A stretch of 64,000 nt of DNA, taken from the NCBI RefSeq assembly GCF_003795145.1, contig NZ_CP027786.1, positions 2,294,001 to 2,358,000 on the forward strand. Direction: 5' to 3'. Below are positions 3,582 through 35,477 of the stretch, in pieces. The stretch comes from Tetragenococcus koreensis. GTDB taxonomy: Bacteria > Bacillota > Bacilli > Lactobacillales > Enterococcaceae. The first letter of the stretch is position 1. Each line of letters starts with the position of its first letter. The notes beneath the pieces were generated by a model. That model ran no database searches. It had not been told where the DNA came from and was given only the letters and a program-made list of their open reading frames with translations. The position numbers and the translations under genes are program-made.

Positions 3582-4313
3582 ATGATAGCATTTGATAATA
3601 TATCTGCCAGCTACGATGGTGTTCATCAAGCAGTAGAAGATGTGACATTTACAGTTGATAAACCGGCGATTGTTGGTATTATCGGACCTAATGGTGCTGG
3701 AAAATCAACTTTTATTAAGTCCGCTTTGCATTTGATTGACGGAGGCGGATCAACTACAGTAGATGGAAAACCATTACAAAAAAGGAAAAAAGAAGTCGCT
3801 TATGTGGAACAAAAAAGCGATATCGATTATACATTTCCTATTACTGTTGGGGAATGTGTTTCATTGGGGCTATACCCAGAAAAGCAATTTTTTCAACGGA
3901 TAACAAAAGAAGATTGGCAAAAAGTGGATCATGCGTTAGCTTTAGTTAAAATGGAAGAATTTAAGGATCGTCAAATTGGCGAATTATCGGGCGGTCAATT
4001 CCAACGGATCTTAATTGCTCGTACATTTGTTCAAGATGCGACTTTCATTTTCTTAGATGAACCTTTTGTGGGAATTGACGCGACTAGCGAACAAATTATC
4101 ATGGAATTATTGAGCGGTTTTAAAAAAGAAGGTAAAGCGATATTCATCGTTCACCATGATTTGAGTAAAGTAGAAAGATACTTTGATGAACTCGTCATTT
4201 TAAATAAAAAATTGATTGCCAAAGGGCCGACGGATGAAACCTTTACGAAAGCGAACTTACAAGAGGCTTTTGGTGACACTATTTTCGTTGGAGGAGGTCA
4301 GGTAAATGATTAG
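3582..4313 (+). CDS. mntB: Manganese/zinc ABC importer ATPase
   Basis: This 243-residue ABC ATPase of the metal-chelate (Mn/Zn/Fe) family has Walker [10 protein letters not shown] (about 37-45), the Q-loop in YVEQKSD, signature LSGGQFQR, Walker [11 protein letters not shown] and the H-loop in IVHHD. It energises import by the membrane protein encoded next, whose start overlaps its 3' end by 8 bases. The start ATG follows GGAGGAAG. It resembles the ATPase encoded at 23827-24558 (both have the DEPFVGID motif), so the two systems are paralogous. A DtxR-type operator lies just upstream, implying repression when manganese is plentiful. Confidence 0.9.
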
Positions 4314-6066
4314 TGATTTTATTGAAGGATTAATGGATTATCATTTCTTGCAAAATGCTTTAGTGACCTCAGTTGCCATTGGTATAGTCGCAGGTGTGGT
4401 TGGTTGTTTTATTATTTTAAGAGGGATGTCTTTAATGGGCGATGCCATTTCTCACGCGGTTTTACCGGGTGTGGCGTTATCTTTTATTTTAGGGATTCAT
4501 TACTTTGCAGGTGCTGTTGTATTTGGGGTTCTAGCTTCGATCCTGATTACCTATATTTCGCAAAATAGTACGATCAAAAGTGATACAGCCATTGGGATCA
4601 CATTTAGTTCATTCCTGGCTTTAGGGGTTATTTTGATTGGTGTAGCAAACAGCTCGACGGATTTATTTCATATTTTATTTGGGAACGTTCTAGCTGTACA
4701 AGATGTAGATAAATGGCTAACCATTGGTATTGCTCTATTTGTAATTGCTGCAATTATTATTTTTTACCGCCCGCTTTTAATCACTTCGTTTGATCCTAAT
4801 ATGGCCAAAGCTTTTGGTATGCGGGTGCAAGTGTATCATTACTTACTGATGATTTTATTAACCTTAGTTTCGGTTACGGCGATGCAAAGTGTCGGAACAA
4901 TCTTAATTGTTGCACTTTTGGTAACGCCAGCAGCAACCGCTTATCTTTATACTAAACGGTTAAAAACCATGATTGTGTTATCAGCCATTTTAGGTGGCAT
5001 TTCTTCAGTACTGGGGCTTTTTATTGGCTATAGCTTTAATATTGCAGCTGGTTCTAGTATCGTATTAACAGCAGCCTTTATGTTTGTCATTGGATTTTTC
5101 TTATCGCCTAAACAACGAATTCAACACGGCAAAAGAAGTTATTTCATTGTGGCGCTGGTAGTGGCATTATTTGCTGGAGGTATTGGTTTTTATGCCCACC
5201 AACAATCTAGTGGAGAAGACAGCGACAAGTTAGATGTGGTAGTAACAAACTCCATTATAAATGATATGACAAAAGAAATCGCAGGAGATCGTATCGACTT
5301 ACACAGCATTGTTCCTGTCGGAAGAGATCCTCATGATTACGAACCACTACCTGAAGATGTCGAAGAATCAACAGAGGCTGATTTAATTTTCTATAACGGC
5401 TTGAACTTAGAAACAGGCGGTAACGCTTGGTTTACTAATTTAATGGATAATGCAGACAAAGAAGATAATGAAGATTACTTTGCAGTAAGTCAGGGCGTTG
5501 AGCCGCTTTACCTAGAAGAAGGGGAAGACCAAGATCAACAAGATCCCCATGCTTGGATGAGCCTGGAAAACGGAATGACTTATGCTAAAAATATCGAAAA
5601 ACATCTTAGTGAAAAAGATCCACAAAATGCGGATTATTATGAAGAAAACTTAGATAGTTATCTAGATGAACTAGAAGAGTTGGATCAAGAAGCTAAAGAT
5701 AAATTCAGTGATATTCCTGAAGATGAAAAACTACTTGTAACAAGCGAAGGTGCTTTTAAATATTTCTCCCAAGCGTATGATGTACCTGCTTCTTATATTT
5801 GGGAAATCAATACCGAAGAAGAAGGTACGCCTGAACAAACAAAAAGAGTGGTCGACCAACTTGAAGATACGAATGTAAAATCTTTGTTTGTTGAAACGAG
5901 TGTCAATCCTAGTCCAATGCAAAGTGTTTCTCAAGATTCTGGTATTCCGATTTATTCTGAGATATTTACAGACTCAGTAGCTGAACCTGGAGAAGAGGGA
6001 GATAGTTATTATGCGATGATGAAATGGAACATCGATAAAATTCATGAAGGTTTAACGCAAGAATAG
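4306..6066 (+). CDS. Fused metal ABC permease and substrate-binding protein
   Basis: The 586-residue protein joins two normally separate subunits. Residues about 1-270 are an ABC-3 family permease with many membrane helices ([40 protein letters not shown]). A further hydrophobic segment (about 280-297) then leads into a cluster-A binding protein from about 310 to the end. The four metal ligands of the manganese type are visible: His in DPHDYEP, His in DPHAW, Glu in [10 protein letters not shown] and Asp in IFTDSVAE; a Glu rather than His at the third position favours Mn2+ over Zn2+. The linker helix replaces the binding protein's membrane anchor and keeps the domain outside. The second manganese locus in this window has the same parts as two genes. 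A terminator hairpin (6069-6107) follows. Confidence 0.92.
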
Positions 6067-17393: not shown

Positions 17394-18923
17394 ATGCAAG
17401 AAGAGCTAGAAAAAGAAGAGAAAACAGGATTCCAGATGCCGCACACCTACGTGATCATCTTTGGGATTGTGGTGGTAGCGTGGCTTTTGACTTTAGTTAT
17501 CCCAGCCGGTAAATTCAGCACAGAAGAAGTAGAATACGAAACTGGTGATGGCGGAGTTGAAACACAAGAAGTGCTACAGCAGGATTCATTCCGTTATATG
17601 CATCCGCTTGAACAAGATACTTTGCGTACAGAGTTAGAAGAGCTGTCACAAGATACAGAGACATTAGCTAATCTTCAAGTGGAAGAAGAGGACTTAACGC
17701 AAGTTTTAGATGAAAACCAAGAGATTTCGTTAAGCCAATTGTCTGAAATTGGGCTGTCTGAAGATGAGCTGTATGATCTTTATGGAGATAGTGTTTATGA
17801 CACGTCTGAAAATTTGAACAAAACTGCTAATGTCTGGGGAACAGAAGATCATTATGGTTTTGGTGTGTTCAATTACTTGTTTGAAGGGTTGGTAACCGGG
17901 GATCGGTTTAGTTCTGCGATCGGAATTGTGGCGATGCTTTTGGTAGTCGGCGGTGCCTTTGGAATTATCATGAAAACTGGAGCGATCGATGCTGGGATCT
18001 ATGCCTTTTTACGTAACGCTCGTGGCATGCAGGATTTAGCTGTGCCTTTGATTTTTGTCGCTTTTTCTTTTATGGGCGCAACTTTTGGGGCTTCTGAAGA
18101 AGTGATTGCTTTTGCGATTATTATTGTGCCGTTTACGATTGCGTTAGGTTATGATTCGATTACGGCGGTGACGATTACAATTGCGGCGGCTGAAATCGGG
18201 AATGCGGCCTCCTGGATGAGTCCTTTTAGTATCGCGATTGCCCAAGGAATTGCCGGATTGCCAGCGTTATCTGGAGCGGGCTTTCGGATTGTCATGTGGA
18301 TCGTTATCACGACCCTTGCTTGTGGTTATACGGTTCGTTATGCCAGAAAAATCAAAGCTAATCCGACCCAATCTGTAACCTACAAGTCAGATGGCTACTT
18401 CCGCAAAAATTTAAAGGGACAAAAGGAAGTAGACCATCCATTTACCTTAGGTCATAAAGTAATTTTGTTGGAATTATTAGTAGGTTTAATTTGGATTGTT
18501 TATGGTGTGATGGCTCAAGGGTTTACGATCCCGGAAATGGCTTCTCAATTCTTTGTAATCGGACTAGGTGCAGGCGTGATCGCTATTGTTTTACGTGTGA
18601 ATAATATGAGAATTAATGATGTTGCATCAGCCTTTCAAGATGGTGTGGCAGACCTTGCTCCAACAGCTGCAGTTGTCGGCATGGCCCAAGGGATTCTTTT
18701 AGTATTAGGCGGTTCAGATGCAGGTAGTTATTCAGCTTTAAATACAATTTTACACAGTGTCGGTCAACTCTTATCAGGCGTGCCTTCAATGATCGCTGCT
18801 TGGTTTATGTATATTTTCCAAAGTTTATTTAACTTAGTCGTGACATCTAATTCAGGACAAGCTGCATTAACTATGCCAATTATGGCACCTTTAGCAGACT
18901 TGGCGGGCGTTTCGGTTCTATAA
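17394..18923 (+). pseudogene. YfcC family transporter, 5' part (split by composite insertion)
   Basis: The frame encodes a YfcC/DcuC-like (C4-dicarboxylate or aminobenzoyl-glutamate-type) membrane carrier. After the first helix (about 20-42) there is an acidic exported loop of about 100 residues, then multiple helices (FGASEEVIAFAIIIVPF; TSNSGQAALTMPIMAPLADLAG). True coding ends at 18913, where a GGTTCT inverted repeat starts; the last few codons are element sequence. The missing 70 residues are at 29867-30079, and joining across the duplicated GGCGTTTC restores one frame (...LAGVS-RQVAVL...). The product is therefore truncated and loses its last helices. The intact gene would have preceded iadA, suggesting transport of isoaspartyl peptides or similar. 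Confidence 0.93.
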
Positions 18924-20448
18924 TATATGACGTTGGTGAGAAATCACTGGCGTCTTTTTTTGTCTCAGAAAATAGAAAACAAGTGAGTTCTCCTGTAGAA
19001 TAATAGTCGACAAAAACCAAATATCCATAGGAGGAACTCACTTGCCTACATCAAATGATATGCAAAATGTACTAGATATTCAAGACAAAAACATGATTTT
19101 CGAAGATAACTGCGTGTCTTATGGGATACACAAACAAAAGAAATGTAAATTTATAGACTGTACATTGACTTATATTCCTACGGAATGTAAGAAATGTCAG
19201 GAACCAAACAAGGACTTCTCTATCTATAAAAATGGGACTCAGACTTCTAGAATCACTTTTCCAATATCTGGCATTTACCCGACCTATCTTAGAGTGAAAA
19301 AGCAGCGGTTCAAGTGTACATCTTGTGAAGCAACATTTACTGCGGAAACACCGATTGTAAAAGAGGCGTGTTTTATCTCTAATTTTATCAAAGCAGAAAT
19401 ACTGGCGAAGTCAGCTGATGCTCGTTCGATCAAGAGCTTGGCAGAAGAGACGAATGTCTCTTCCACAACGATTCAAAGAATCATCAATGAACAGGTGAAG
19501 TATTATCGACCTTACTATCATTCATTGCCGGAGAACTTGTCTTTTGATGAGTTTAAGTATGGTAATGGGCAAATGGCTTTTGAGTATATTGATGTCGTAA
19601 CAGGAACGATACTAGATATTTTAGAAAGCAAAGATACTCGTACAATCAAAGATCACTTCTGTTCTCGATACAGCCAAAACCAGAGAAATCAGGTCAAAAC
19701 GATTACGACAGACATGAATGCCAGTTACGTCAGCTTCATCCCTGAACTGTTTCCAAACGCTGATATCATTATTGATCGATTTCATATCGTTCAGCTCGTG
19801 AACCGAGCGATGAACAAAACACGCGTAAAAGTCATGAATCGACTTCGAACGTCCAATGGAGAAGACCAAAAGAAGTACAGACGACTCAAACGCTTCTGGA
19901 AGAAACTACTGAAGAAAGAGTCCGAGTTGTCTTATACTACCTATCAATACTTTCCCATGTTCGGACAGCGTCTGGAATCAGCAATCGTTTCTGAGATGTT
20001 GGCGTACGATCCAGAACTAAAAGCAACTTATACAATGTATCAAGCTATTCTTAAAGCCGTCGAACACAATGACTCAAAACAGTTAAGAACTGTTTTAGAT
20101 CAACCCGCTTCTCCTGAACTATCTGGATACATGAAAACCAGTTTAAAGACGTTGAGCGCTCATTTTCCTCATATCCAAAACACCTTCTATTATCCTTATA
20201 ACAATGGAAAGATAGAGGGAATCAATAACAAGATCAAAGTATTGAACCGGGTAGCCTATGGTTACGGTAACTTTATTCATTATAAAAATCGCATTATCCT
20301 GCACTTCAATTTAAAACCAATCAGAAATAAAATCAAAATGATAGAAAAAGAAAGAGAACATACAGCAGCGTAAGCTCGTTGTACATCCTCTTCCAAAATC
20401 TATTATTATTTGACTTTATTCTTTACCAACGTTGTTTGACAGAGAACC
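18914..20448 (+). mobile_element. ISL3-family insertion sequence at the left end of the composite
   Basis: The element is 1,535 bp. The left end GGTTCTATAATATATGACGT and the right end (reverse complement GGTTCTCTGTCAAACAACGT) are related inverted repeats. It contains one transposase. Its right end abuts IS3 orfB sequence without a copy of GGCGTTTC, so the copy is not a simple insertion in yfcC. Confidence 0.85.
19042..20373 (+). CDS. ISL3 family transposase
   Basis: This 443-residue transposase has an N-terminal zinc-finger region (CKFIDC...CKKC and later FKCTSCEATF), a helix-turn-helix at about 135-155 (IKSLAEETNVSSTTIQRII), and the DDE domain: FDEFK, TITTDMNASY, IIDRFHIVQLVNRA and the C-terminal KIEGINNKIKVLNR. 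It starts with TTG 19042 behind AGGAGG at 19029-19034. It appears intact and could mobilise the whole composite in trans. Confidence 0.9.
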   Translation: MPTSNDMQNVLDIQDKNMIFEDNCVSYGIHKQKKCKFIDCTLTYIPTECKKCQEPNKDFSIYKNGTQTSRITFPISGIYPTYLRVKKQRFKCTSCEATFTAETPIVKEACFISNFIKAEILAKSADARSIKSLAEETNVSSTTIQRIINEQVKYYRPYYHSLPENLSFDEFKYGNGQMAFEYIDVVTGTILDILESKDTRTIKDHFCSRYSQNQRNQVKTITTDMNASYVSFIPELFPNADIIIDRFHIVQLVNRAMNKTRVKVMNRLRTSNGEDQKKYRRLKRFWKKLLKKESELSYTTYQYFPMFGQRLESAIVSEMLAYDPELKATYTMYQAILKAVEHNDSKQLRTVLDQPASPELSGYMKTSLKTLSAHFPHIQNTFYYPYNNGKIEGINNKIKVLNRVAYGYGNFIHYKNRIILHFNLKPIRNKIKMIEKEREHTAA

Positions 20449-21250
20449 TTATTATCAATCAAAACCAAAGAAAGACGAATCAGAACTTGAAGAAGTAGTC
20501 GCTGAAGAATTTATCCGCAGCCGAAAGGCCTACGGCTCAAGAAAAATAAAAAAAGCCTTATCAAAACGAGGCATTCAGATCAGCCGACGAAAAATTAGTA
20601 GAATCATGAAAAATAGAGGATTAAAATCGAGCTATACTGTTGCTTATTTTAAAGTACATCATTCTACTTGCAATGAAGCCAAAACGACAAACGTATTGAA
20701 TCGTAAATTCTTAAGAGACAACCCATTAGAAGCGATCGTAACAGACTTGACTTATGTACGAGTCGAGAAAAAATGGAATTATGTCTGTTTCATTTTGGAT
20801 CTGTTCAATCGAGAAATTCTCGGCTATTCTTGTGGAGAACATAAAGATGCCGTTCTAGTAAAAAAAGCATTTAGCCGTATCAAACAACCTCTGACAGAGG
20901 TTGAGATTTTTCATACTGATCGTGGAAAAGAGTTTGATAACCAAGCTATTGATGAATTATTAACAACTTTTGACATCAATCGATCATTGAGTCATAAAGG
21001 CTGTCCTTTTGATAATGCCGTAGCTGAATCAACTTATAAGTCGCTGAAAGTAGAATTTGTCTATCAATACACATTTGAAACCTTACAACAATTGGATTTG
21101 GAGTTATTTGACTATGTCAATTGGTGGAACCACCTTCGGTTGCACGGTACACTTGGCTACGAGACACCGGTTGGTTACCGTAACCAGAGATTGGCGCAGC
21201 GAATCCTTGATAATGAGCTCGGATGTGCTAACGCTAGCGAGGCAGTCTAA
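20432..21250 (+). pseudogene. IS3 orfB transposase, 5'-truncated
   Basis: The open frame of 272 codons keeps nearly all of the IS3 orfB integrase core, but its first six codons come from the ISL3 right end. The normal copy (28841-29677) begins MCRILGLSRQSYYYQ. Without orfA and the left inverted repeat it is not expected to make a functional OrfAB transposase. Confidence 0.85.
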
Positions 21251-21377
21251 CTTTAACTGTTAGCTCCTGCCGAAGATCGTCACATCCGAGGAGGCTCATT
21301 GTCAAGGACAATCGGAATAGCATACGGAAAGAAGTTCTGCACCTTATAAAATTTGTCAAAAAAACTGTTGCCATTCC
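20449..21377 (+). mobile_element. Truncated IS3-family element (right part)
   Basis: This stretch is identical by eye to 28876-29805 with no indels and lacks the left end and orfA. The orfB relic runs from 20449 to 21250 (any start used would come from the ISL3 end, MFDREP...), keeping the DDE residues TDLTYV, HTDRGKEF and AVAEST. It is fused directly to the ISL3 right repeat. Confidence 0.9.
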
Positions 21378-21385
21378 AACTTATT

Positions 21386-21787
21386 TTATGAAAAGTATTT
21401 ATCATATTGGATACGACTTTCAATAGTCTCCTGTTCTATATAACATTTAAGTCTTTCAAAAAATAGAGAGCTATGAATTTGTAGGAGTTCATTTATAATT
21501 TCTGGTGCCTCAGTTCTAGAAATGCCGAGATATGATGTTAAGAAAGTTGAGAGTATGAGACGTCTTTCTTTAAGTAAAGCTACTTGTTCCTCACCCGAGG
21601 ATGTTAAAAAAACACCTTGATAAGAAATGTGCTGAATCATATTTTGATTTACCAGTCTATCCATTATTTCTGTAACAGAAGAAGGCTTGACCTCTAGGAT
21701 ATCAGCAACCTGTCTATTTCTTACCAACTTTTTATCTTTACTAAGTTTGTCAATAACTAGCAGATACTTTTCTTGGGTTGGTGTCAA
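21386..21787 (-). CDS. mntR: DtxR/MntR-family metal-dependent repressor
   Basis: The 134-residue protein has an N-terminal winged helix (TPTQEKYLLVIDKL; VRNRQVADILEVKPSSVTEIMDRLVNQNMI) and a helical dimerisation/metal region with the EAPEIINELLQIHSSLFFERLKCYIEQ pattern (about 85-125). It is short and lacks the SH3-like third domain, as in MntR. I choose TTG 21787, preceded by AAAGGAG with 8 bases spacing; a TTG at 21805 has no ribosome site. The protein then begins MTPTQEKYL, as family members do. It is oriented with mntABC and is likely to regulate mntABC and mntH through TTAGG/CTAA sites. It lies 8 bases from the IS3 end. Confidence 0.85.
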   Translation of the reverse strand: MTPTQEKYLLVIDKLSKDKKLVRNRQVADILEVKPSSVTEIMDRLVNQNMIQHISYQGVFLTSSGEEQVALLKERRLILSTFLTSYLGISRTEAPEIINELLQIHSSLFFERLKCYIEQETIESRIQYDKYFS

Positions 21788-21903
21788 TGTTAGTTCTCCT
21801 TTCAAGTAAAATCAGTAGCATCCTACGTTATTAAACTGGGGTGTCTTTATGTAACATATCTAAAAATAATCCTAAGAAAAAAATTAGCTAAGTAATAATT
21901 TGT

Positions 21904-22001
21904 CTTTTGATGATATCTTATCGTAATGAGATATCTGAGGACCGCTCAATCATCAAAAGTCGTCCCTCTAAATAAACTACAAGAATAATTACTTAGAGGG
22001 A
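21904..22001 (-). terminator. Hairpins downstream of mntA
   Basis: Two hairpins lie between mntA and the regulator. One is CTTTTGATGA (21904) with TCATCAAAAG (21950-21959), with an inner GATATCTTA/GAGATATC. The other is CCCTCTAA (21964) with TTAGAGGG (21993-22000). They probably end the mntABC transcript; the U-runs are weak. Confidence 0.45.
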
Positions 22002-22033
22002 AACTTTAAAATATCAATATGTTTTTAACATTG

Positions 22034-22969
22034 CTAAGCTAGACCATCATGAATTTTGTTTAGATTCCATTTCATCATTGTATAGTAGGTATCGCCTTCG
22101 GAACCTTCTTTTGCTAATGAATCAGTAAAAATTTTGGAATAAATTTCTAATCCCGTTTCATCGGCAACTTTATTCATTGACTTAGATGAAACAGAGGTTT
22201 CTACGAACAAATGTTTGACATCAGAGTTTTCTATTTTAGCTAACACAGCTTTCATTTGTTCGGGAGTACCTTGAGATTCGGTATTGATTTCCCAAATGTA
22301 AGCTGGCGCAACATGATAGGCTTTTGAGAAGTATTTGAAGGCACCCTCTGAGGTGACCAATAAACGCTGTGATTCAGGAATATCGAGAAATTTTGATTGC
22401 GCTTCCTCATGTAACTTTTGTAATTTTTTGATATAAGCATCAGAATTAGTTTGGTAATAATCTGCATTTTTTGAATCTTTTTCCTTTAAGACTTTGGTGA
22501 TTGTTTTGACGTATTGAACACCATTGGCTAAATCAAGCCAGGCATGAGGATCTTCTTCTTCGACGTTGGTTGTTAAGTGCTCCGGTGTTACACCTTCACT
22601 GGCGGCGAAAACATCTTTATCGAATTCTTTATGAGCAGTGCTTACCAACTTCTTGAACCAACCACTACCGCCAGTTTCTAAATTCAGTCCGTTGTGAAAT
22701 AAAACTGTTGCATCTGTTGCTTTTGAGATATCTTCCGGTTTAGGTTCATACTCGTGGGGATCCACGCCGCGTTGAACAATACTATATAGTTCAACGCGAT
22801 CTTTAGCCACATTTTTAACCATGTCTTCCAAAATCGAGTTTGTAGTTACTACGCTGATTTTTTTGGAATCTGTTGATTGTTTGGAATCTCCACTTCGTCC
22901 GTTGACAAAAAAGATTACTCCGGCGACGGCTGCGATCACTACTACGATGGTTACTAATATTCTTTTCAT
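22034..22969 (-). CDS. mntA: Manganese ABC importer, substrate-binding protein
   Basis: This 311-residue cluster-A binding protein has an N-terminal hydrophobic anchor (about 4-23) but no lipobox cysteine, so it is anchored by its signal segment. Manganese-type ligands are seen: His in DPHEYEP, His in DPHAW, Glu in [10 protein letters not shown], Asp in IFTDSLAK. It is closely similar in motif spacing to the C-terminal half of the fused protein at 4306-6066. It is the last gene of the mntBCA-order operon, with a 2-base gap after the permease gene. Confidence 0.92.
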   Translation of the reverse strand: MKRILVTIVVVIAAVAGVIFFVNGRSGDSKQSTDSKKISVVTTNSILEDMVKNVAKDRVELYSIVQRGVDPHEYEPKPEDISKATDATVLFHNGLNLETGGSGWFKKLVSTAHKEFDKDVFAASEGVTPEHLTTNVEEEDPHAWLDLANGVQYVKTITKVLKEKDSKNADYYQTNSDAYIKKLQKLHEEAQSKFLDIPESQRLLVTSEGAFKYFSKAYHVAPAYIWEINTESQGTPEQMKAVLAKIENSDVKHLFVETSVSSKSMNKVADETGLEIYSKIFTDSLAKEGSEGDTYYTMMKWNLNKIHDGLA

Positions 22970-22971
22970 AT

Positions 22972-23826
22972 TTACGCCTCTTTTCTATTTTTGTGTATAT
23001 GTAACAAGTTTTGTTTTGGTGAGAAGATAAAGGAAATTAAGAATAACCCTGCTGCGACAATAACAATCGCTGGACCAGAAGCCCAGTTGAATGTGTAGCT
23101 GAAGTACAAACCACAAATTGATGCGACAACACCAAATATAGCGGAGAAAACAAGCATCACGGACAAGCGGTCGGTCCAAAAGTATGCTGTTGCAGCTGGC
23201 GTAATTAACATGGCCACTACTAAGATGATTCCGACAGTTTGTAATGCTGATACGGTTACTAGCGTTAAGACGAGCATAAGGCTATAGTGGATTAGTTGGG
23301 TATTTAATCCATATGTTTTAGCGAAGGTCTGATCAAAGGAAGTGATTAACAATTCTTTATAAAATACTTGTACAAAAATAATCACAATTCCTAAAACAAT
23401 TGCCGTTGTGATCATATCACTATTACTAACAGCTAGAATGTTTCCAAATAAAATATGGTGTAGATTGGTTGAGCTTTCGGCCATAGAGATTAAAATGAAT
23501 CCCAATGCATAAAAGAAGCTGAAGACAACCCCTATTGCAGTATCTACTTTGATTTTACTATGAGAAGCCACGTAGCCGATTAACATTGCAGCTAGTACAC
23601 CAAAAATAGATGCTCCAATCAAGATATTTATACCTAACATATAAGCAACAGCAACCCCTGGCAATACTGAATGAGAAATAGCGTCCCCCATCAAAGACAT
23701 TCCTCGTAGAATGATGAAACTCCCAATAATCCCAGACATAATCCCCACCATTATTGCAGTGATTAATGCACTTTGAAGGAAATCATATTTTCCTAACGCT
23801 TGAAAAAAATCCGAGAGAGCAGTCAT
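22972..23826 (-). CDS. mntC: Manganese ABC importer, permease
   Basis: The 284-residue ABC-3 family permease has eight or so hydrophobic helices and the motifs [21 protein letters not shown] and GIILVVAMLITPAATAYFW. It stops before the extra anchor-plus-binding-domain found in the fused relative of this window. Its start directly follows the ATPase stop, so the operon is tightly coupled. Confidence 0.93.
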   Translation of the reverse strand: MTALSDFFQALGKYDFLQSALITAIMVGIMSGIIGSFIILRGMSLMGDAISHSVLPGVAVAYMLGINILIGASIFGVLAAMLIGYVASHSKIKVDTAIGVVFSFFYALGFILISMAESSTNLHHILFGNILAVSNSDMITTAIVLGIVIIFVQVFYKELLITSFDQTFAKTYGLNTQLIHYSLMLVLTLVTVSALQTVGIILVVAMLITPAATAYFWTDRLSVMLVFSAIFGVVASICGLYFSYTFNWASGPAIVIVAAGLFLISFIFSPKQNLLHIHKNRKEA

Positions 23827-24558
23827 TCAATTTACCTCCTGAAATAGAACTGAAGATAAGTCATCACTGAATGCTTTACTGATATTCTTCGAATTGTAGA
23901 CTTCTTGAGTTGGCCCAAAGTCAATGATTCCGTGATTCATAATGACTAATTCATCAAAGTAATCATAAACTTTATTTAAATCGTGATGGATAACGATAAT
24001 GGTTTTTTGTTCGTCTCGCCATTGTTTTAAAATAGCCATGATGGCACGCTCACTTTCCACATCAATTCCAACAAAAGGTTCATCTAAGACAACAATTTCT
24101 GCCTGTTGTAAAATTGCTCGAGCTACGAATACCCGCTGTAATTGTCCGCCTGACAAATTACCTATTTGCCGATTAGCAAAGTCAGTCATTTTAACTTGCT
24201 CAAGAGCTGCATCACAAGCAACACGTTCGCTTTTTCCTGGAGTCTTAAACAATCCCAGTTTTCCATAACTACCAGTTAAAACCAAATCATAGACATTGAT
24301 TGGAAAACTGAGATCTAAATCCTTTCGTTGCTCTACATAGGCAACCTTCTTTTTTACTGTTGCCATTGAATGACCATCAAGCGCGCTACTACCTGATTTT
24401 GGATGAATAAGACCCAATATTGCCTTGATTAAAGTAGATTTACCAGCTCCATTAGGTCCGATAATGCCAGTAATCTTCCCTGCATTAAAATGGACGGATA
24501 AATTATTGAATACCGGTGTATCGCAGTACGCAACAGATAATTTTTTTACAGTTAACAA
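23827..24558 (-). CDS. mntB: Manganese ABC importer, ATPase
   Basis: The 243-residue ABC ATPase has Walker [10 protein letters not shown], the Q-loop in YVEQRKD, signature LSGGQLQR, Walker [14 protein letters not shown] and switch histidine VIHHD. The likely start is TTG 24558 (read as Met) behind AAAGGAGG. It is the first gene of the operon, divergent from mntH. A near-ideal promoter lies in the intergenic region. Confidence 0.92.
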   Translation of the reverse strand: MLTVKKLSVAYCDTPVFNNLSVHFNAGKITGIIGPNGAGKSTLIKAILGLIHPKSGSSALDGHSMATVKKKVAYVEQRKDLDLSFPINVYDLVLTGSYGKLGLFKTPGKSERVACDAALEQVKMTDFANRQIGNLSGGQLQRVFVARAILQQAEIVVLDEPFVGIDVESERAIMAILKQWRDEQKTIIVIHHDLNKVYDYFDELVIMNHGIIDFGPTQEVYNSKNISKAFSDDLSSVLFQEVN

Positions 24559-24596
24559 ATAAAAACCTCCTTTAAAAACTAAATTTTTCTAATTTT

Positions 24597-24650
24597 AGTA
24601 TAACCTCTAAAAATATTTTGGTCAACCTTATTTTTTTTAGGTTTGTCTAA
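24597..24650. promoter_or_regulatory. Divergent mntB/mntH control region with operator
   Basis: On the reverse strand TTGACC (24620-24625) and TATACT (24597-24602) are 17 bases apart and drive mntBCA. On the forward side, at 24637-24650, TTAGGTTTGTCTAA matches the TTAGG-N4-(C/T)CTAA palindrome found at 3541-3554 ahead of the resident manganese locus, which suggests control of mntH and perhaps both directions. Confidence 0.65.
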
Positions 24651-24682
24651 TATTTTGCTTTAATTTAATAAAAAAGAGGTGT

Positions 24683-26296
24683 ATGCTTATGATGTTTTTA
24701 AAGGAAGGTGGAAATATTTTGAAAGATACAACAAGTCAGTCCGGTAAAGAGCACAAACCTCGATTAATTCAGCATGCGAATGGTCCCTCTTTAGAGGAAA
24801 TTAACGGAACTGTCGAGGTACCCAAAGGCAAAGGCTTTTGGAAAATCCTGTTCGCCTATTCTGGACCGGGAGCATTAGTTGCTGTGGGATATATGGATCC
24901 AGGCAACTGGTCTACTTCGATTACGGGTGGGCAAAACTTCCAGTATTTATTAATGTCGGTCATTTTAATGTCTAGTTTAATTGCAATGCTATTACAATAT
25001 ATGGCTGCTAAATTGGGAATTGTTAGTCAAATGGATTTAGCTCAAGCAATTCGAGCGAGAACGAGTAAAAAACTAGGAATCATTTTATGGATTTTAACGG
25101 AATTAGCGATTATGGCAACAGATATTGCGGAAGTAATTGGCGCATCAATTGCTCTTTATTTACTTTTTAATATTCCGCTTGTCGTCGCAGTCTTTATTAC
25201 GGTATTTGATGTTTTATTATTATTGTTGTTAACGAAAGTTGGTTTTAGAAAAATTGAAGCAATAGTTGTCTGTTTGATTTTTGTAATTCTTTTTGTGTTT
25301 GTTTATCAAGTAGCGTTGTCTGATCCTAATTGGGGGGATGTACTTAAAGGATTGGTTCCGACTGGTGAAACGTTCTCCTCTACACATTCAATTGGTGGTC
25401 AAACGCCTTTAACTGGTGCATTAGGAATTATTGGTGCAACAGTTATGCCTCATAATTTATATCTACATTCGGCTGTGTCTCAGACTCGAAAGATAAATCG
25501 TACGGATGAAGATGAAATCGCCAATGCTGTACGATTTTCAACATGGGATTCTAACATTCAATTGACTCTCGCTTTTTTTGTTAACTCCTTATTGCTCATA
25601 ATGGGAGTTGCTGTTTTTAAAACAGGGGCAGTGAAAGATCCATCATTCTTTGGGTTGTATGAGGCTTTATCAAATCCGGATACATTGAGTAACGGAATTT
25701 TAATCACCGTTGCAAAATCAGGTCTTCTTTCTACATTATTCGCAGTCGCGTTACTAGCTTCTGGACAAAATTCAACGATTACCGGAACTTTAACTGGACA
25801 AGTAATTATGGAGGGATTCATTCATATGAGAATGCCAATTTGGCTAAGACGTTTAATTACGCGTTTGATTTCAGTTATCCCAGTGTTAATCTGTGTAATT
25901 ATTACAAGCAGGCAAGGAACGATTCGGGAGCACACAGCGTTAAATACACTAATGAATAATTCACAAGTCTTCTTAGCTTTTGCGTTACCATTTTCGATGG
26001 TACCATTATTAATGATGACCAATAGTGAGGTGGAAATGGGAAGCCGGTTTAAAAATTCGATAGTTATTCGGATACTAGGATGGGGTTCAGTAATTGGATT
26101 GACATATTTAAATTTGATTGGATTGCCCGGCCAAATTGAAGGTTTTTTTGGTGAAAAGGTGACATCAAGCCAACTTGTACTAGCTGATTCTATTGCCTAT
26201 GTCATTATCGTCGCAGTATTACTACTGTTAGCGTGGACAATTATTGAACTGTATAAAGGAAATAAAAAATATAATCAATTAATTAATGAAAGGTAA
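24683..26296 (+). CDS. mntH: Nramp family Mn2+/H+ symporter
   Basis: This 537-residue Nramp transporter has eleven or twelve helices. The helix 1 motif GYMDPGNWSTSITGG carries the DPGN metal-binding residues, and helix 6 has the MPHNLYLHSA motif with the metal-binding Met, both diagnostic of MntH. The start could be ATG 24683 (AGAGG, short spacing) or TTG 24719 (AAGGAAGGTGG); the latter gives MKDTTSQSGKEHKPR, and I cannot decide between them. It is followed 8 bases later by a universal stress protein gene, probably in one transcript. Confidence 0.94.
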   Translation: MLMMFLKEGGNILKDTTSQSGKEHKPRLIQHANGPSLEEINGTVEVPKGKGFWKILFAYSGPGALVAVGYMDPGNWSTSITGGQNFQYLLMSVILMSSLIAMLLQYMAAKLGIVSQMDLAQAIRARTSKKLGIILWILTELAIMATDIAEVIGASIALYLLFNIPLVVAVFITVFDVLLLLLLTKVGFRKIEAIVVCLIFVILFVFVYQVALSDPNWGDVLKGLVPTGETFSSTHSIGGQTPLTGALGIIGATVMPHNLYLHSAVSQTRKINRTDEDEIANAVRFSTWDSNIQLTLAFFVNSLLLIMGVAVFKTGAVKDPSFFGLYEALSNPDTLSNGILITVAKSGLLSTLFAVALLASGQNSTITGTLTGQVIMEGFIHMRMPIWLRRLITRLISVIPVLICVIITSRQGTIREHTALNTLMNNSQVFLAFALPFSMVPLLMMTNSEVEMGSRFKNSIVIRILGWGSVIGLTYLNLIGLPGQIEGFFGEKVTSSQLVLADSIAYVIIVAVLLLLAWTIIELYKGNKKYNQLINER

Positions 26297-26304
26297 GATG
26301 CACT

Positions 26305-26742
26305 ATGGAAGGATTTGATGAATTTAAAAATATTTTAGTTGGGGTAGATGAATCAGAAGGAGCTCAAAAAGCCTTTCAATATGCTGTAAAGCAAGCGAGT
26401 AAAACTGGAGCCGCATTACTGATTGCCTCAATTTTAGAAATTGAAGAGTTGAATGTTTATGAAGCGTTAGACCCTGAGTACTTGAGCCAGAAACAAAGTC
26501 AATTGTTACTTAATTTGGAAAAGTACAAACAATATGCAGAAAATAGCGGTGTAAAAAACATTCAGCTGTACAGTGGAGAAGGTGATCCGGCCGAGGAAAT
26601 TACTAAGACGATTTTGCCAGCAACATCTGCAGATATCTTAATCATTGGATCGCGATCAATGCATGGAATTAAAGGATATTTTGGTTCGCATGCTACTTAT
26701 ATGGTTAAAAATTCTCCAATCTCAATTACAGTTATTAAGTAA
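26305..26742 (+). CDS. Universal stress protein, UspA family
   Basis: The 145-residue single-domain Usp has ILVGVDESEGAQKAF at the N-terminus (the Asp that contacts adenine) and the C-terminal GSRSMHGIKGYFGSHATYMVKNS stretch forming the G-2x-G-9x-G(S) nucleotide loop, so ATP binding is likely. It sits immediately downstream of mntH in the same direction. A GTG or ATG just before it (ATG 26305 after AAGG) is used. Its role alongside manganese uptake is not known. Confidence 0.9.
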   Translation: MEGFDEFKNILVGVDESEGAQKAFQYAVKQASKTGAALLIASILEIEELNVYEALDPEYLSQKQSQLLLNLEKYKQYAENSGVKNIQLYSGEGDPAEEITKTILPATSADILIIGSRSMHGIKGYFGSHATYMVKNSPISITVIK

Positions 26743-26799
26743 ATATTGCAGATAATATGTATTTGGGTCAATATCTTGGACAAATTTTAATAGAGATGG

Positions 26800-26997
26800 T
26801 TATGCTATTTCCTCTCTTGACAGGTCTTCAAACTCCTGTGGAGTTAGATAACCAATCGAACTAATGTAGCTAAATAGCGCTCGTTTGGCTTCTTCAAAAT
26901 CTGAGTAAGTAGTCGTATAGACCTCTTCTTTTTTCAATGATGCATAGGAAGATTCGATTATTGTATACTGGCTGCATAAATCCGTTTGTAGAACCAT
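26800..26997 (-). pseudogene. IS3 orfB C-terminal fragment
   Basis: This fragment of about 65 codons resembles the end of an IS3-family integrase: LQTDLCSQYT (decayed HTD-GSQYT), LKKEEVYTTTYSDFEEAKRALFSYI and IGYLTPQEFE. The catalytic regions upstream are missing. It is distinct from the two other IS3 types in this window. Confidence 0.75.
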
Positions 26998-27041
26998 TCC
27001 TCCTGGAATGTGATAATGCTTTTTGGATTAGAGTCAATAGC

Positions 27042-28260
27042 TGAGACACTTTTTACGAGAGATTTTTTATGTTAAGCAGCCAGTATCTTTTTCTAAAATT
27101 CAACCGGAGACAGATATGCTAAAGCACTGTGAATTCTGTGGTTGTTATAAAATCCTTGAACGTAACTGAAAATTTGTCGCCTTGCTTCTTCAAAAGTTTG
27201 ATATATTGGTCGTTGGGACACATGTTCTTTCTTCAATAATGCATGGAATGATTCGATTCCTTCGTTATCGTAGGGACAGCCTTTACGGCTGTAGGAATGG
27301 TGATAGTTAATTCTTTCAGCCGTTCTTCGTATTCATTACTTGTATACTGCGACCCTAAATCGGTATGCAAAATCAGCCCATTTTCAACATTTCTATTTGA
27401 AACAGCGTCCTCAAGGGCTTTTTCTACAATAACAGTCGTCATATTACGATCAAAGTGATAACCGATAATTTTTCTTGAATGAAGGTCCATGATGGTTGAG
27501 AGATAGCACCATCCATCGTCTAACGTATGGATGTATGTGATATCAGCTACCCATTTCTGATTCAACCTAGTAGTAGAAAAATCTTGCTTCAATAAATTTT
27601 GATAGTTTTTCAAGAGTTTCTTGGCAGGCTTACCTGCTTTGAATTTCTTAATGACAATAGATCGGATCTTTTGACGCCTCATTGATCTCTGAATACATTT
27701 CATGCTGATTTTTCGATAGTCTGAATAGTTTTGTGCGAGTATATAATGAATTTTCCCAGCACCGTAGACACGACCACTTTCGTGGTAGACACGGAGGACT
27801 CGACGATCCAACAAAACTTGTTCGTTAGCTCTTTTGGATGGGGTCGGATTAATTTTACGATAGTACACAGCTCTAGATATGCCAAGCAGACGACACATTT
27901 TTGACACACTGTGATGGCCTGCTTCTCTTTCTTGACGGATGAATTCAATGATTTCTATTTCTTTGCCAGCAGGCCGAGTGATTTTTTTAAGATGAGGAGT
28001 TCCTCGTCTTTTTCTTTTAATTGCTTTTTTAAAGCTTTAGCTTCGTCCGGAGTAAGTCCGCCCGGACTTATTCTGGTTGTAACTTGAACCCACTTTAGTA
28101 TAGTAGAATATCCAACTTCGTATTCTAAGGATAATTGTCGTGCTTATTTTCCTTGTTTGTGCAACTCTAAAATCGCTTCTTAAATTCTTTCGTGTAGCGT
28201 TTTGGCATGACGAGACACCTTCCTTTGAGATTAGTTTACCCTCTCTCAAAATCTGTCTCA
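27042..28260 (-). mobile_element. Degenerate IS3-family element
   Basis: TGAGACACTTTTTACGAGAG (27042-27061) and the reverse complement of 28241-28260 (TGAGACAGATTTTGAGAGAG) match at about 15 of 20 positions and mark the ends of a 1.2-kb element. No clear target duplication is seen. The reading frames are broken. Confidence 0.75.
27093..28208 (-). pseudogene. IS3 transposase OrfA/OrfB, multiply disrupted
   Basis: OrfA begins MPKRYTKEFKKRF at 28208 and soon meets in-frame stops; its frame later reads LTPDEAKALKKQLKEKDEEL. OrfB begins near SVSKMCRLLGISRAVYYRK and is open from 27907 to 27233 with KWVADITYIHT and HTDLGSQYTS. It then shifts frame before the third catalytic residue and ends with SALAYLSPVEF at 27093. 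At least one frameshift and several stops make it inactive. Confidence 0.85.
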
Positions 28261-28261
28261 A

Positions 28262-28381
28262 CTTCTATCCTACATCCAGGACTTAATAGTTATTAACAAA
28301 CACTATTATGAATATCAATTCATGCGCGGATTAAAATATGCTATCGATACCAGTAGTGTTGTGCTTGCGGATAGTATATAA
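28262..28381 (+). pseudogene. 3' fragment of an unrecognised gene
   Basis: Between two IS3 elements a frame open from the left element reads ...NKHYYEYQFMRGLKYAID and ends in VVLADSI before TAA at 28379. It looks like the last 40 codons of a real gene cut by the IS3 insertion. I do not recognise the family. Confidence 0.35.
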
Positions 28382-28514
28382 ATTTAATAAAAGATTCATT
28401 AAAAAAATTACATATAGGATAATTTTGTAGGTATGAATCTGGATAGGCTACAATTAACTAGACAGAAAAATTAAGGTGTGTAGACTAGAAGAAAATATAC
28501 CAGGAGGAATTTTT

Positions 28515-28805
28515 ATGTCTAAGAGAACACGAAGAACTTTTTCACAAGAATTCAAGCAACAAATCGTCAATCTTTACTTAGCTGGAAAGCCACGTGTAGA
28601 AATCATTCGAGAATATGAACTAACGGCTTCAGCATTTGACAAATGGGTAAAGCAATCTAAAACGAGTGGTTCATTCAAAGAAAAAGATAATCTTACGCCT
28701 GAACAAAAAGAATTGTTAGAACTACGTAAAAGAAACCAGCAATTAGAAATGGAAAATGATATTTTAAAGCAAGCAGCGCTGATATTCGGACGAAGAGACA
28801 AGTAA
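28515..28805 (+). CDS. IS3 family transposase OrfA
   Basis: The 96-residue OrfA has an N-terminal helix-turn-helix (RRTFSQEFKQQIVNLYLAGKP...EYELTASAFDKWVKQ) and a leucine-zipper-like coiled coil (LTPEQKELLELRKRNQQLEMENDILKQAALIF). ATG 28515 follows CAGGAGG. It is expected to be joined to OrfB by -1 frameshifting near its end, as usual in IS3. Confidence 0.92.
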   Translation: MSKRTRRTFSQEFKQQIVNLYLAGKPRVEIIREYELTASAFDKWVKQSKTSGSFKEKDNLTPEQKELLELRKRNQQLEMENDILKQAALIFGRRDK

Positions 28806-28840
28806 TCGATGCGAATAAGCATCTTTACCCTATATCAGCG

Positions 28841-29677
28841 ATGTGCAGAATATTAGGTCTATCACGTCAGTCCTATTATTATCAATCAAAACCAAAGAAA
28901 GACGAATCAGAACTTGAAGAAGTAGTCGCTGAAGAATTTATCCGCAGCCGAAAGGCCTACGGCTCAAGAAAAATAAAAAAAGCCTTATCAAAACGAGGCA
29001 TTCAGATCAGCCGACGAAAAATTAGTAGAATCATGAAAAATAGAGGATTAAAATCGAGCTATACTGTTGCTTATTTTAAAGTACATCATTCTACTTGCAA
29101 TGAAGCCAAAACGACAAACGTATTGAATCGTAAATTCTTAAGAGACAACCCATTAGAAGCGATCGTAACAGACTTGACTTATGTACGAGTCGAGAAAAAA
29201 TGGAATTATGTCTGTTTCATTTTGGATCTGTTCAATCGAGAAATTCTCGGCTATTCTTGTGGAGAACATAAAGATGCCGTTCTAGTAAAAAAAGCATTTA
29301 GCCGTATCAAACAACCTCTGACAGAGGTTGAGATTTTTCATACTGATCGTGGAAAAGAGTTTGATAACCAAGCTATTGATGAATTATTAACAACTTTTGA
29401 CATCAATCGATCATTGAGTCATAAAGGCTGTCCTTTTGATAATGCCGTAGCTGAATCAACTTATAAGTCGCTGAAAGTAGAATTTGTCTATCAATACACA
29501 TTTGAAACCTTACAACAATTGGATTTGGAGTTATTTGACTATGTCAATTGGTGGAACCACCTTCGGTTGCACGGTACACTTGGCTACGAGACACCGGTTG
29601 GTTACCGTAACCAGAGATTGGCGCAGCGAATCCTTGATAATGAGCTCGGATGTGCTAACGCTAGCGAGGCAGTCTAA
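28841..29677 (+). CDS. IS3 family transposase OrfB
   Basis: This 278-residue integrase core has an HTH_21-type segment (AYGSRKIKKALSKRGIQISRRKISRIMK) and the DDE residues in VTDLTYVRV, FHTDRGKEF and NAVAESTYKSLK. The frame is open a little upstream (VIDANKHLYPISAMCRIL), consistent with production as an OrfAB fusion. The gene is intact and probably active. Confidence 0.93.
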   Translation: MCRILGLSRQSYYYQSKPKKDESELEEVVAEEFIRSRKAYGSRKIKKALSKRGIQISRRKISRIMKNRGLKSSYTVAYFKVHHSTCNEAKTTNVLNRKFLRDNPLEAIVTDLTYVRVEKKWNYVCFILDLFNREILGYSCGEHKDAVLVKKAFSRIKQPLTEVEIFHTDRGKEFDNQAIDELLTTFDINRSLSHKGCPFDNAVAESTYKSLKVEFVYQYTFETLQQLDLELFDYVNWWNHLRLHGTLGYETPVGYRNQRLAQRILDNELGCANASEAV

Positions 29678-29804
29678 CTTTAACTGTTAGCTCCTGCCGA
29701 AGATCGTCACATCCGAGGAGGCTCATTGTCAAGGACAATCGGAATAGCATACGGAAAGAAGTTCTGCACCTTATAAAATTTGTCAAAAAAACTGTTGCCA
29801 TTCC

Positions 29805-29866
29805 ATCTAAAAATAATTCAATAAAAAAGATTATTATTCTCCACCAACGTCATTTGACGTAGAACC
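29805..29866. repeat. Distal ISL3-type right end of the composite
   Basis: About 60 bases to the right of IS3 end in CCACCAACGTCATTTGACGTAGAACC's repeat core (29841-29866). It differs from the right end at 20448 but pairs better with the left end at 18914. It is the outer boundary used with the GGCGTTTC duplication. Confidence 0.75.
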
Positions 29867-30079
29867 GGCGTTTCAAGACAAGTAGCTGTACTTTGTTTCC
29901 AATTAGGTGCTGGTTTTGTCGATGCCTTTACGCCAGTTTCTGCCAGCTTGATCGGTGTATTAGGAATTGCTCACATGAATTGGAGCCAATGGGCGAAGTT
30001 CCAAATCAAAATGCAAGGCTTTTTATTCGTTATTGGAAGTGCCTTTATTATCGGCGCAGTACTGATTGGTTATCACTAA
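29867..30079 (+). pseudogene. YfcC family transporter, 3' part
   Basis: From the second GGCGTTTC copy the frame reads GVSRQVAVLCFQLGAGFVD and continues through TPVSASLIGVLGIA to a final helix and TAA at 30077. This is the missing C-terminus of the carrier at 17394-18913. It has no start codon of its own and is separated by 10,953 bp. It ends 13 bases before iadA, so it marks the original yfcC-iadA operon. Confidence 0.93.
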
Positions 30080-33708: not shown

Positions 33709-34560
33709 ATGATGACATTGAATAACAAGTTTCTTTTGAATGATGGAACGAGTTTACCACACATTGCGCTGGGAACAATTGACCTGCAAGGTGGCAAAGG
33801 TGTCCATCAAGCCCTCGCTGCCCTTGATATTGGCTACCGTGTTCTTGATACAGCAACCAATTACAATAACGAAGGCATGATAGGCGAAGTTGTTCGTCGT
33901 TCATCAATTCCTAGAGAGCAACTCTATGTGAGTGCAAAACTCCCTGGGTTAGCACACAAATATGATAAAGCGATCGCGCTTATTCAAGAATCGCTATATC
34001 GCACAGGTTTAGATTATTTTGATAAATTCCTGATCCACTGGCCCAACCCTAAAGAAGGATTGTACGTTGAAGCTTGGCAAGCCCTCGTGGATGCGCAAAA
34101 ATATGGGTTGATCAAGACAATCGGAGTTTCCAATTTCTTACCAGAACATTTAGATAATATTATTGAAGCAACGGGCGTAACGCCAGCAACCAACCAAATT
34201 GAACGTCATCCTTACTTTAATAACAAAGATTTAGTTGCAGAAAACGATAAACGTGGCATTGTTTCTGAAGCTTGGAGTCCATTTGGTCGCGAAATCAACG
34301 ATGTGTTGACTAATGACACTATCAAAGAAATTGCTAAAAAATACGGTCGTAGTCCTGCACAAGTGATTATTAACTGGGATAATCAAAACCATGTATTTCC
34401 AGTGGTTCGCTCAGCTAATCCTAAACATCAATATGAAAACTTCCATTATACAGATTTTGAATTAGCTCAAGAAGATTTGGTTAAAATCGATGCCTTAGAT
34501 AAGGGAGAAGAAGGCCGTGTCGAAGGCCAAAACCCAAACGAATACGAAGAATTTGTTTAA
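33709..34560 (+). CDS. Aldo/keto reductase (tandem copy 1)
   Basis: The 283-residue NADPH-dependent AKR has the catalytic tetrad: Asp and Tyr in RVLDTATNYNNE, Lys in VSAKLPG, His in LIHWPNP. NADPH-site elements are GVSNF, NQIERHPYF and VFPVVRSANPKH. The gene begins ATGATG after AAGGGAAGG. The next gene is a close copy, separated by a terminator. The enzyme would reduce small aldehydes or ketones; the substrate is not known. Confidence 0.9.
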   Translation: MMTLNNKFLLNDGTSLPHIALGTIDLQGGKGVHQALAALDIGYRVLDTATNYNNEGMIGEVVRRSSIPREQLYVSAKLPGLAHKYDKAIALIQESLYRTGLDYFDKFLIHWPNPKEGLYVEAWQALVDAQKYGLIKTIGVSNFLPEHLDNIIEATGVTPATNQIERHPYFNNKDLVAENDKRGIVSEAWSPFGREINDVLTNDTIKEIAKKYGRSPAQVIINWDNQNHVFPVVRSANPKHQYENFHYTDFELAQEDLVKIDALDKGEEGRVEGQNPNEYEEFV

Positions 34561-34566
34561 TAAAGG

Positions 34567-34602
34567 AAAAAAAGCATGTCTGTTTAATAGGCATGCTTTT
34601 TC
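34567..34602 (+). terminator. Terminator between the two reductases
   Basis: AAAAAAGCATG (34567 on) pairs with CATGCTTTTT around a loop, followed by T residues. The second copy must therefore have its own start of transcription or rely on read-through. Confidence 0.75.
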
Positions 34603-34628
34603 TATTGAATTTATGAGGAGGATGTCTA

Positions 34629-35477
34629 ATGACATTGTATGATCAATTTTATTTAAACGATGGCACAACTTTACCTCATGTTGGATTTGGAACAGTCCAT
34701 ATCCAAGGAGGTAAAGGGGTTCATCAGGTGTTGTCCGCGCTTGATGTTGGGTATCGTGTCCTTGATACCGCAACAGGTTATAATAATGAAGGTATGGTAG
34801 GCGAAGCTGTTCGACGTTCTTCTATTCCTAGAGAACAACTCTATGTAAGCGACAAGCTCCCTGGTTTAGCGCATCGGTATGACAAAGCGATCGACCTTAT
34901 CCAAGAAACCCTTTATCGAACAAAGTTAGATTATTTTGATAAATATCTTATCCACTGGCCCAATCCTCAAGAAGGTTTATACGTCGAAGCTTGGCAAGCC
35001 CTCGTGGACGCACAAAAATATGGACTCATTAAGACAATCGGTGTTTCCAACTTTTTACCAGAACATTTAGATAACATTATTGAAGCAACAGGCGTAACCC
35101 CAGCAACCAACCAAATTGAGCGTCACCCTTACTTTAATAACAAAGAATTAGTCAAAGAAAATGACAAACGCGGGATTTTATCCGAAGCCTGGAGTCCTTT
35201 TGGTCGTGAAATCAATGATACGTTAACCAATAATACGATTAAAGAAATTGCTGAAAAATACGGTCGTAGCCCTGCGCAAATTATTCTTAACTGGGACAAC
35301 CAAAGTCGCGTCTTTCCTGTAGTGAGATCCGCAGATCAAAAACATCAATCGGATAATTTCCACTATTTAGACTTTGAACTAGCCCAAGAAGATTTGGAAA
35401 AAATCGACGCCTTAGACAGAGGCGAACAAGGACGTATCGAAGGACAAAATCCAAACGAATACGAAGAATTTACTTAA
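34629..35477 (+). CDS. Aldo/keto reductase (tandem copy 2)
   Basis: This 282-residue paralogue of the preceding gene keeps the tetrad (LDTATGYNNE, SDKLPG, LIHWPNP). The central stretch from KYGLIKTIGVSNF to IERHPYFNNK is the same protein sequence in both copies. Differences cluster at the N-terminus and around the cofactor phosphate site (RSADQKHQSDNF versus RSANPKHQYENF). ATG follows GAGGAGG. It is a recent tandem duplication. A terminator lies at 35491-35527. Confidence 0.9.
   Translation: MTLYDQFYLNDGTTLPHVGFGTVHIQGGKGVHQVLSALDVGYRVLDTATGYNNEGMVGEAVRRSSIPREQLYVSDKLPGLAHRYDKAIDLIQETLYRTKLDYFDKYLIHWPNPQEGLYVEAWQALVDAQKYGLIKTIGVSNFLPEHLDNIIEATGVTPATNQIERHPYFNNKELVKENDKRGILSEAWSPFGREINDTLTNNTIKEIAEKYGRSPAQIILNWDNQSRVFPVVRSADQKHQSDNFHYLDFELAQEDLEKIDALDRGEQGRIEGQNPNEYEEFT

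Follow-up and report, generated by a model that had tools for sequence, protein, structure and literature searches.

In Enterococcus faecium, the liaSR genes have been found flanked by full ISL3 elements, one on each side, in a genomic context common to every isolate. In the accessible part of that report, the authors consider recombination the more plausible explanation, remark that target duplications deserve a look, and state that to their knowledge there is no earlier description of such an ISL3 structure (PMC9484755). Here we describe a related arrangement from Tetragenococcus koreensis, in a stretch of 64,000 nucleotides (the window, whose numbering is used throughout; the genome that carries it is G000, and an octamer is an 8-bp repeat). 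An insertion of 10,953 bp (18914-29866) carrying a manganese-uptake module lies inside a gene for a YfcC-type transporter, with GGCGTTTC on either side. It is very probably a composite transposon, moved by means of the left end of a complete ISL3-family element (designated ISL3-A) and the lone right end of a second ISL3 element. As in the liaSR structures, so far as the accessible text describes them, ISL3 elements or ends stand in the same orientation around host genes (PMC9484755), but the unit here consists of one full ISL3 and a lone end, is bordered by a perfect 8-bp duplication, and has its empty site preserved in relatives. It provides the duplication and empty-site evidence that the earlier ISL3 report wanted, judging from the same part of the text (PMC9484755), and argues, at the level of sequence, that ISL3 elements can mobilise over 9 kb of DNA useful to a host via mismatched ends.

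The RUSTI iron-uptake islands of cheese bacteria offer a second parallel, as a metal-uptake module moved among food bacteria for which a vehicle can be identified; as presented in the accessible sections, however, they concern iron rather than manganese, and the variant whose vehicle is known comes from Actinobacteria, where it sits on an integrative and conjugative element (PMC5526665). A literature search, mostly without subscription papers, yielded no recognised description of the 10,953-bp unit. New here are a full ISL3 paired with a sister element's lone end, a duplication that demonstrates use of the outer ends, and the distribution of the module over different vehicles. The features that define the insertion are these:

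17394..18913, + strand: 5' part of yfcC (NF008611 YfcC 513 bits, cut-off 500), with an in-frame junction to 29875-30079
18906..18913, + strand: left copy of the target duplication, GGCGTTTC; empty site in relatives
18914..20448, + strand: complete ISL3-family element ISL3-A, whose left end is the unit's left end; 100% identical second genomic copy
19042..20373, + strand: ISL3 transposase gene, 443 aa (NF033550 295 bits, cut-off 180; PF01610 177 bits, cut-off 23)
29806..29866, + strand: lone right end of a second ISL3, the rest of which is missing, forming the unit's right end; the same end is found 3' of the transposase in related ISL3 elements
29867..29874, + strand: right copy of the target duplication, matching the left octamer exactly
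29875..30079, + strand: 3' part of yfcC, with an in-frame junction to the 5' part

An earlier note, made from the sequence alone, had placed ISL3-type ends at 18914 and 29866, each bordered by a direct repeat, had given the unit a length of 10,953 bp, and had claimed that the halves of yfcC rejoin in frame once a single repeat is removed. All three claims stand: GGCGTTTC occupies 18906-18913 and 29867-29874, the length is correct, and deletion of one copy joins 17394-18913 to 29875-30079 in a single open frame of 574 residues. The truncated product keeps 507 of the 574 native residues and gains two foreign ones. By itself the octamer is weak evidence, since it occurs four times in the window against an expected 1.54 and at least four copies arise in 7 of 100 shuffles. 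It gains weight because both copies abut a 26-nt inverted repeat (18913-18938 and 29842-29867) that is 81% complementary. At one pre-chosen place, the chance of an 8/8 match is about 1.5e-5 and that of at least 21 of 26 complementary bases about 4e-9.

The empty site that the note had proposed to look for in relatives is present. Of the eight further genomes from the genus, seven have an uninterrupted yfcC, and the left-part query gave no match in the eighth (G006). In the same seven congeners, a joined query of 690 bp (414 bp from the left and 276 bp from the right) spans the junction as a single alignment at about 80-84% identity. The note had also named, as an observation that would speak against an insertion, close relatives with the manganese locus at yfcC but without ISL3 ends or the duplication; the seven congeners with uninterrupted yfcC show the opposite. 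Because these seven have the intact gene, the split of yfcC is derived and the empty site ancestral, and they rule out a split arrangement as the ancestral state. The insertion is real and, given the perfect duplication and the identical insertion sequence (IS) copies, probably recent.

ISL3-A is 1,535 bp long and complete, with its own inner right end at 20448. A second copy in the genome, at G000:C1:2375061-2376595, is 100% identical over 1,535 bp and is flanked by a perfect 8-bp duplication, TCAATCTT. An 8-bp target duplication is usual for the ISL3 family, and such duplications are also seen in the elements scanned here; with a DDE transposase, imperfect inverted repeats and the duplication at the second genomic copy, 18914-20448 has all the marks by which we would recognise the family. 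The window copy taken alone is flanked by different octamers, GGCGTTTC on the left and TTATTATC after 20448, and the duplication therefore belongs to the outer pair of ends. We considered whether ISL3-A alone made the GGCGTTTC duplication; this is ruled out by TTATTATC to the right of 20448, whereas the second copy duplicates perfectly. The terminal inverted repeats are imperfect, and the left end of ISL3-A matches the far right end (22 of 30 positions) at least as well as its own right end (20 of 30).

Our sample comprised 395 Lactobacillales genomes, one per species. A near-identical (>99%) full-length ISL3-A occurs in two of them, the genome of the window (two copies) and Ruoffia tabacinasalis FAM 24227. 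The next-best matches are 98% over the last 846 bp only (G140) and 94% (G163), and a plasmid search at near identity gave no match to ISL3-A.

The far right end consists of 61 bp of ISL3 cut off by a full-length IS3 element. Used as a 71-bp query, it finds matches with E of 1e-6 or lower in 15 of the sampled genomes, its own included, and is 100% identical in two, again the genome of the window and Ruoffia tabacinasalis FAM 24227. Besides these, 18 right-end loci were found; 13 have an ISL3-A-like transposase stretch, and since the end lies downstream of it in all 13, the far end of the unit is a right end, oriented like ISL3-A. Both ends could be located in seven elements among the 18 loci, five with a perfect 8-bp duplication, one (L091) with none, and one (L085) whose duplication was not readable, as the sequence stretch ended too early. 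A later end-pairing of six loci gave no measurable pair in four (one cut, three without both ends). The most informative of the elements is L127 (in G015), a complete sister of 1,534 bp with 87% DNA identity to ISL3-A. Its terminal 25-mers are exactly the two terminal 25-mers of the unit, and it is flanked by a perfect 8-bp duplication, TTTAATAG; the unit's two end sequences thus co-occur on one natural element of the subfamily. The earlier suggestion that movement would rely on the left ISL3 enzyme is plausible, this being the sole ISL3 transposase gene found in the unit, and L127, with both terminal 25-mers and its duplication, gives it a further basis.

Searches with the right end reached other sources as well. 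A distant search gave weak partial matches in 22 records, all from outside Lactobacillales, and the exact right-end pattern was not found in viral contigs. An exact 25-base scan of genome contigs found three stretches, one in Ruoffia and two in Paraliobacillus, the latter sharing only the terminal 25 nt with the right end.

Between the outer ends, the module is bracketed by IS3-family sequences:

20449..21378, + strand: left IS3-family copy that lacks its 5' part, cut where it meets ISL3-A; 100% over 930 bp against 28876-29805
26800..28260 (limits approximate, drawn partly by eye), - strand: remnants of decayed IS3-type transposases that separate usp from the right IS3 (PF00665 and PF13276 in the open reading frame 27233-27907)
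28440..29805, + strand: right IS3-family element, full length, with open reading frames at 28476-28805 and 28841-29677 (NF033516 249 bits, second frame)

The left and right copies are directly repeated and 100% identical over 930 bp. The first reading frame of the right element (28476-28805) scores below the NF033516 cut-off. Another full-length copy of the right IS3 is at G000:C1:2583417-2584782. In a plasmid search, 27 of the 30 records listed match within IS3 stretches, from which we conclude that the unit's IS3 is common on Enterococcus plasmids. The same IS3 is clustered within 8 kb at G000:C1:2576802-2584786 (L038 6803-14787), as one copy without its last ~58 bp, one 3' fragment and one full reversed copy.

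The likely course of events is as follows. A manganese-uptake module bounded by IS3 copies would have lain inside or beside a second ISL3 element, with ISL3-A later landing in the left-hand IS3. The left end of ISL3-A and the right end that survived from the second ISL3 have the same orientation and would together have made a new transposable unit. The ISL3-A transposase would have paired the outer left end with the lone right end 10.9 kb away, skipping the inner right end, and everything between the outer ends would have moved into yfcC, duplicating 8 bp of target. In the strict sense this is not a composite transposon, as the left side is a full ISL3 and the right side a 61-bp ISL3 end, yet the outer duplication and the empty site in relatives are those of one, and the unit would work like one.

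Ruoffia tabacinasalis FAM 24227, which belongs to the Aerococcaceae and to the same order (Lactobacillales) as the window genome, offers a second view of the right-hand part. One locus (L062) is 100% identical over 72 bp, from the IS3 end through the unit's last base plus one base, beyond which it runs into a different sequence, an IS30 transposase gene that is found whole on plasmids. The octamer beside the Ruoffia right end occurs, on the other strand, at the matching place in an Aerococcus urinaeequi IS30. An IS30 query in Ruoffia hit the 5' part on the right-end contig and, besides this, four 127-128 bp pieces and a single weak match; the middle part of IS30 was not found on the Ruoffia contigs available. 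A separate contig holds 6,980 bp equivalent to 21896 to 28875 of the window at 99.84% identity. The two ends of that contig are the equivalents of 20448 and 28875, both of which adjoin the shared IS3 stretch in the window, and the sequence suggests that Ruoffia also has the ISL3-A/IS3 joint. The note's expectation of the same unit at another site with other flanks was thus borne out for the right end and the cargo, both present in Ruoffia, but not for an intact left end. Because the same junction of IS3 with the 61-bp ISL3 end sits elsewhere in this module-bearing genome, assembly of the right-hand part very likely preceded its arrival at yfcC.

That last point bears on the strongest alternative, in which the unit was assembled in place: a simple ISL3 would have hit yfcC first, and IS3 recombination or later insertions would have added the manganese module between its ends. 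In its favour, two direct IS3 copies bracket the module, the flanks of the right IS3 show no shared 3-bp duplication, in keeping with an earlier recombination between IS3 copies, and a simple element with both outer ends, as L127 demonstrates, could have stood here. We nevertheless consider assembly in place improbable, as the IS3/61-bp junction is found at a different site in Ruoffia, and ISL3-A is complete, with a different inner right end. It is less probable still, and to our mind very unlikely, that homologous recombination imported the block from a strain with an occupied yfcC, the unit having transposed once elsewhere in the species and perhaps being inert now. With one genome per species sampled, strain-level history is out of sight, but the imported block would still require an original transposition into yfcC, and the duplication is perfect. 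Misassembly or chance repeats are the least probable of all, for although assemblers can be led astray by IS repeats, this genome comprises two contigs at an estimated completeness of 100%, the same right-hand junction is present in the unrelated Ruoffia assembly, and intact relatives align straight across both unit ends.

Several observations weigh against transposition of the whole unit by its outer ends. The own right end of ISL3-A is only 1.5 kb from the left end, and the transposase might use it first. L091, also in G015, has the unit's two terminal 25-mers but is 1,451 bp long and lacks a duplication, and its transposase match begins at residue 32. In Ruoffia, ISL3-A is reversed, with its left end fused to the window-equivalent of 21896, and the contigs available yielded neither mntR nor the outer left junction; an inversion of the window-equivalent of 18914-21895 would explain both this contig and the missing pieces. 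Neither a donor of the unit nor an intact second copy of the whole was found, and mobility is read from sequence. These points notwithstanding, movement by the ISL3-A left end and the lone right end is the reading that we favour.

The module itself is more widespread than the unit. With 21379-24631 as the query, 14 of the 395 genomes match at E 1e-200 or better, eight (the window's own included) at 94-100% and six at 69-74%, the former eight representing six genera and two families. Over the 2,525 bp of the ABC (ATP-binding cassette) transporter genes, G002 and G098 are identical to the window, followed by Ruoffia (99.88%), G209 (99.80%), G335 (99.68%), G382 (99.64%) and G083 (96.2%). G002 is of the same genus as the window, and its yfcC is only 80% identical; with identical ABC genes, this argues that the module moved recently between species. 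In G002 the homology runs from 21379, where the contig ends, to 28437, immediately short of the right IS3.

In G098 (L110 6550-16288) and G209 (L111 578-10169), two genomes of different families, a tyrosine integrase and a Rep_trans protein are found near the module, next to rpsI, and the integrase/Rep_trans pairs are almost identical by eye; it is probably carried there in integrative elements with manganese cargo, judging from the sequence. This recalls streptococcal elements such as IMESag-rpsI, an integrative mobilizable element at the 3' end of rpsI; the window copy differs from such elements, as the accessible part of that report describes them, in having neither integrase nor Rep_trans, and so travels in a different vehicle (PMC5704250). 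Of the mntR-ABC part, a near-identity search of plasmids recovered just 85 bp, in a single record. The mntH-usp pair, by contrast, has plasmid matches at 94.9-99.5% identity, which among the 40 matches listed come from Lactococcus (35) and Enterococcus (5), with pCIS8 at 99.4% and pEDNV at 99.5%. By sequence this is the same pair as the mntH-uspA of the dairy Lactococcus plasmids pLd7 and pLd9, to go by the accessible part of their description (PMC6098607). Unlike the unit, pCIS8 has no ABC genes and no regulator in the stretch examined (L109 5001-7340); its vehicle is a plasmid, and an IS6-type gene adjoins mntH. Since mntH-usp is preceded there by a 36-bp piece of the ABC side of the spacer, the pCIS8 sequence suggests a pair cut from a fuller module.

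One metal-uptake module is thus present, nearly unchanged, in different settings across six genera, which suggests recent selection on manganese supply in these bacteria. Only tentatively, and with more doubt than confidence, would we extend the case to a joint reading: that ISL3 elements build large transposons from a full element and a sister's lone end, that one of these was a live vehicle between families of lactic bacteria for a complete, self-regulated manganese module, and that the module trades vehicles (integrase elements at rpsI, plasmids and IS composites) as resistance genes do. If the module does change vehicles in that manner, manganese uptake would be a trait under active exchange in these communities. 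Scarcity of manganese has been put forward, in the accessible portion of one report, as the means by which a Lacticaseibacillus restrains Listeria in cottage cheese (PMC8230772).

The cargo had been described in the earlier note as a DtxR-type regulator with mntABC, mntH and usp, and profile searches agree:

21386..21805, - strand: DtxR/MntR-type metal-dependent regulator (PF01325 42.9 bits, cut-off 26)
22034..22969, - strand: Mn/Fe ABC substrate-binding lipoprotein, EfaA-like (PF01297 267 bits; NF053703 EfaA 449, below its cut-off of 485)
22972..23826, - strand: metal ABC permease, SloB-like (PF00950 280 bits; NF040927 348, below its cut-off of 460)
23827..24558, - strand: metal ABC ATPase (PF00005 110 bits; best NCBIfam match MntA-type, below cut-off)
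24683..26296, + strand: MntH, Nramp Mn(II) transporter (NF001923 487 bits, cut-off 430)
26305..26742, + strand: universal stress protein, Usp (PF00582 80.8 bits, cut-off 24; no NCBIfam match)

The regulator has the DtxR DNA-binding domain; it scores 22.1 bits with PF02742, below the cut-off of 27, and its best NCBIfam match, MntR, reaches 51.9 bits against a cut-off of 138. The binding protein satisfies the general ZnuA family PF01297 and falls below the manganese-specific cut-offs (EfaA, as listed; SloC 391 of 525; staphylococcal MntC 375 of 500). A promoter-like TTGACC-17-TATACT precedes the ABC genes, although two such sites against 0.9 in shuffles is weak support. From these assignments, the cargo would supply Mn(II) by both ABC and Nramp routes, with its own metal-responsive regulator and a stress protein. 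We infer that it is expressed and benefits this host, including under oxidative stress or metal starvation. In Lactococcus cremoris, omission of manganese raised plasmid-encoded MntH 4.2-fold and a UspA 3.2-fold, according to the accessible part of that study (PMC9241929).

The host has other candidates for metal import. A second, more distant Nramp gene is at G000:C1:2501094-2502140, and a resident metal ABC importer operon lies in the same window at about 3582-6066, its DNA matching the imported operon in pieces only (two longer ones at 63-67%, plus 85% over 52 bp). The genome of the window lacks the 72%-identical mntH that four relatives carry. Given the distant second Nramp, the resident operon and the missing mntH, the module may restore or add high-affinity manganese import.

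The spacer between mntABC and mntH (24626-24660) is about 139 bp shorter than in G002, G098, G083, G335 and G382, the break falling in a TTATTTTTTT repeat, and the stretch missing from it may hold mntH control sites. The short form is also found in Ruoffia and in G209 (L111). That it is private to the window and Ruoffia is ruled out by G209, and because of this sharing we did not use the short spacer as evidence for common descent of the unit. Farther along the window, 33709-35477 holds what appears by eye to be a tandem pair of similar aldo-keto reductase-like genes.

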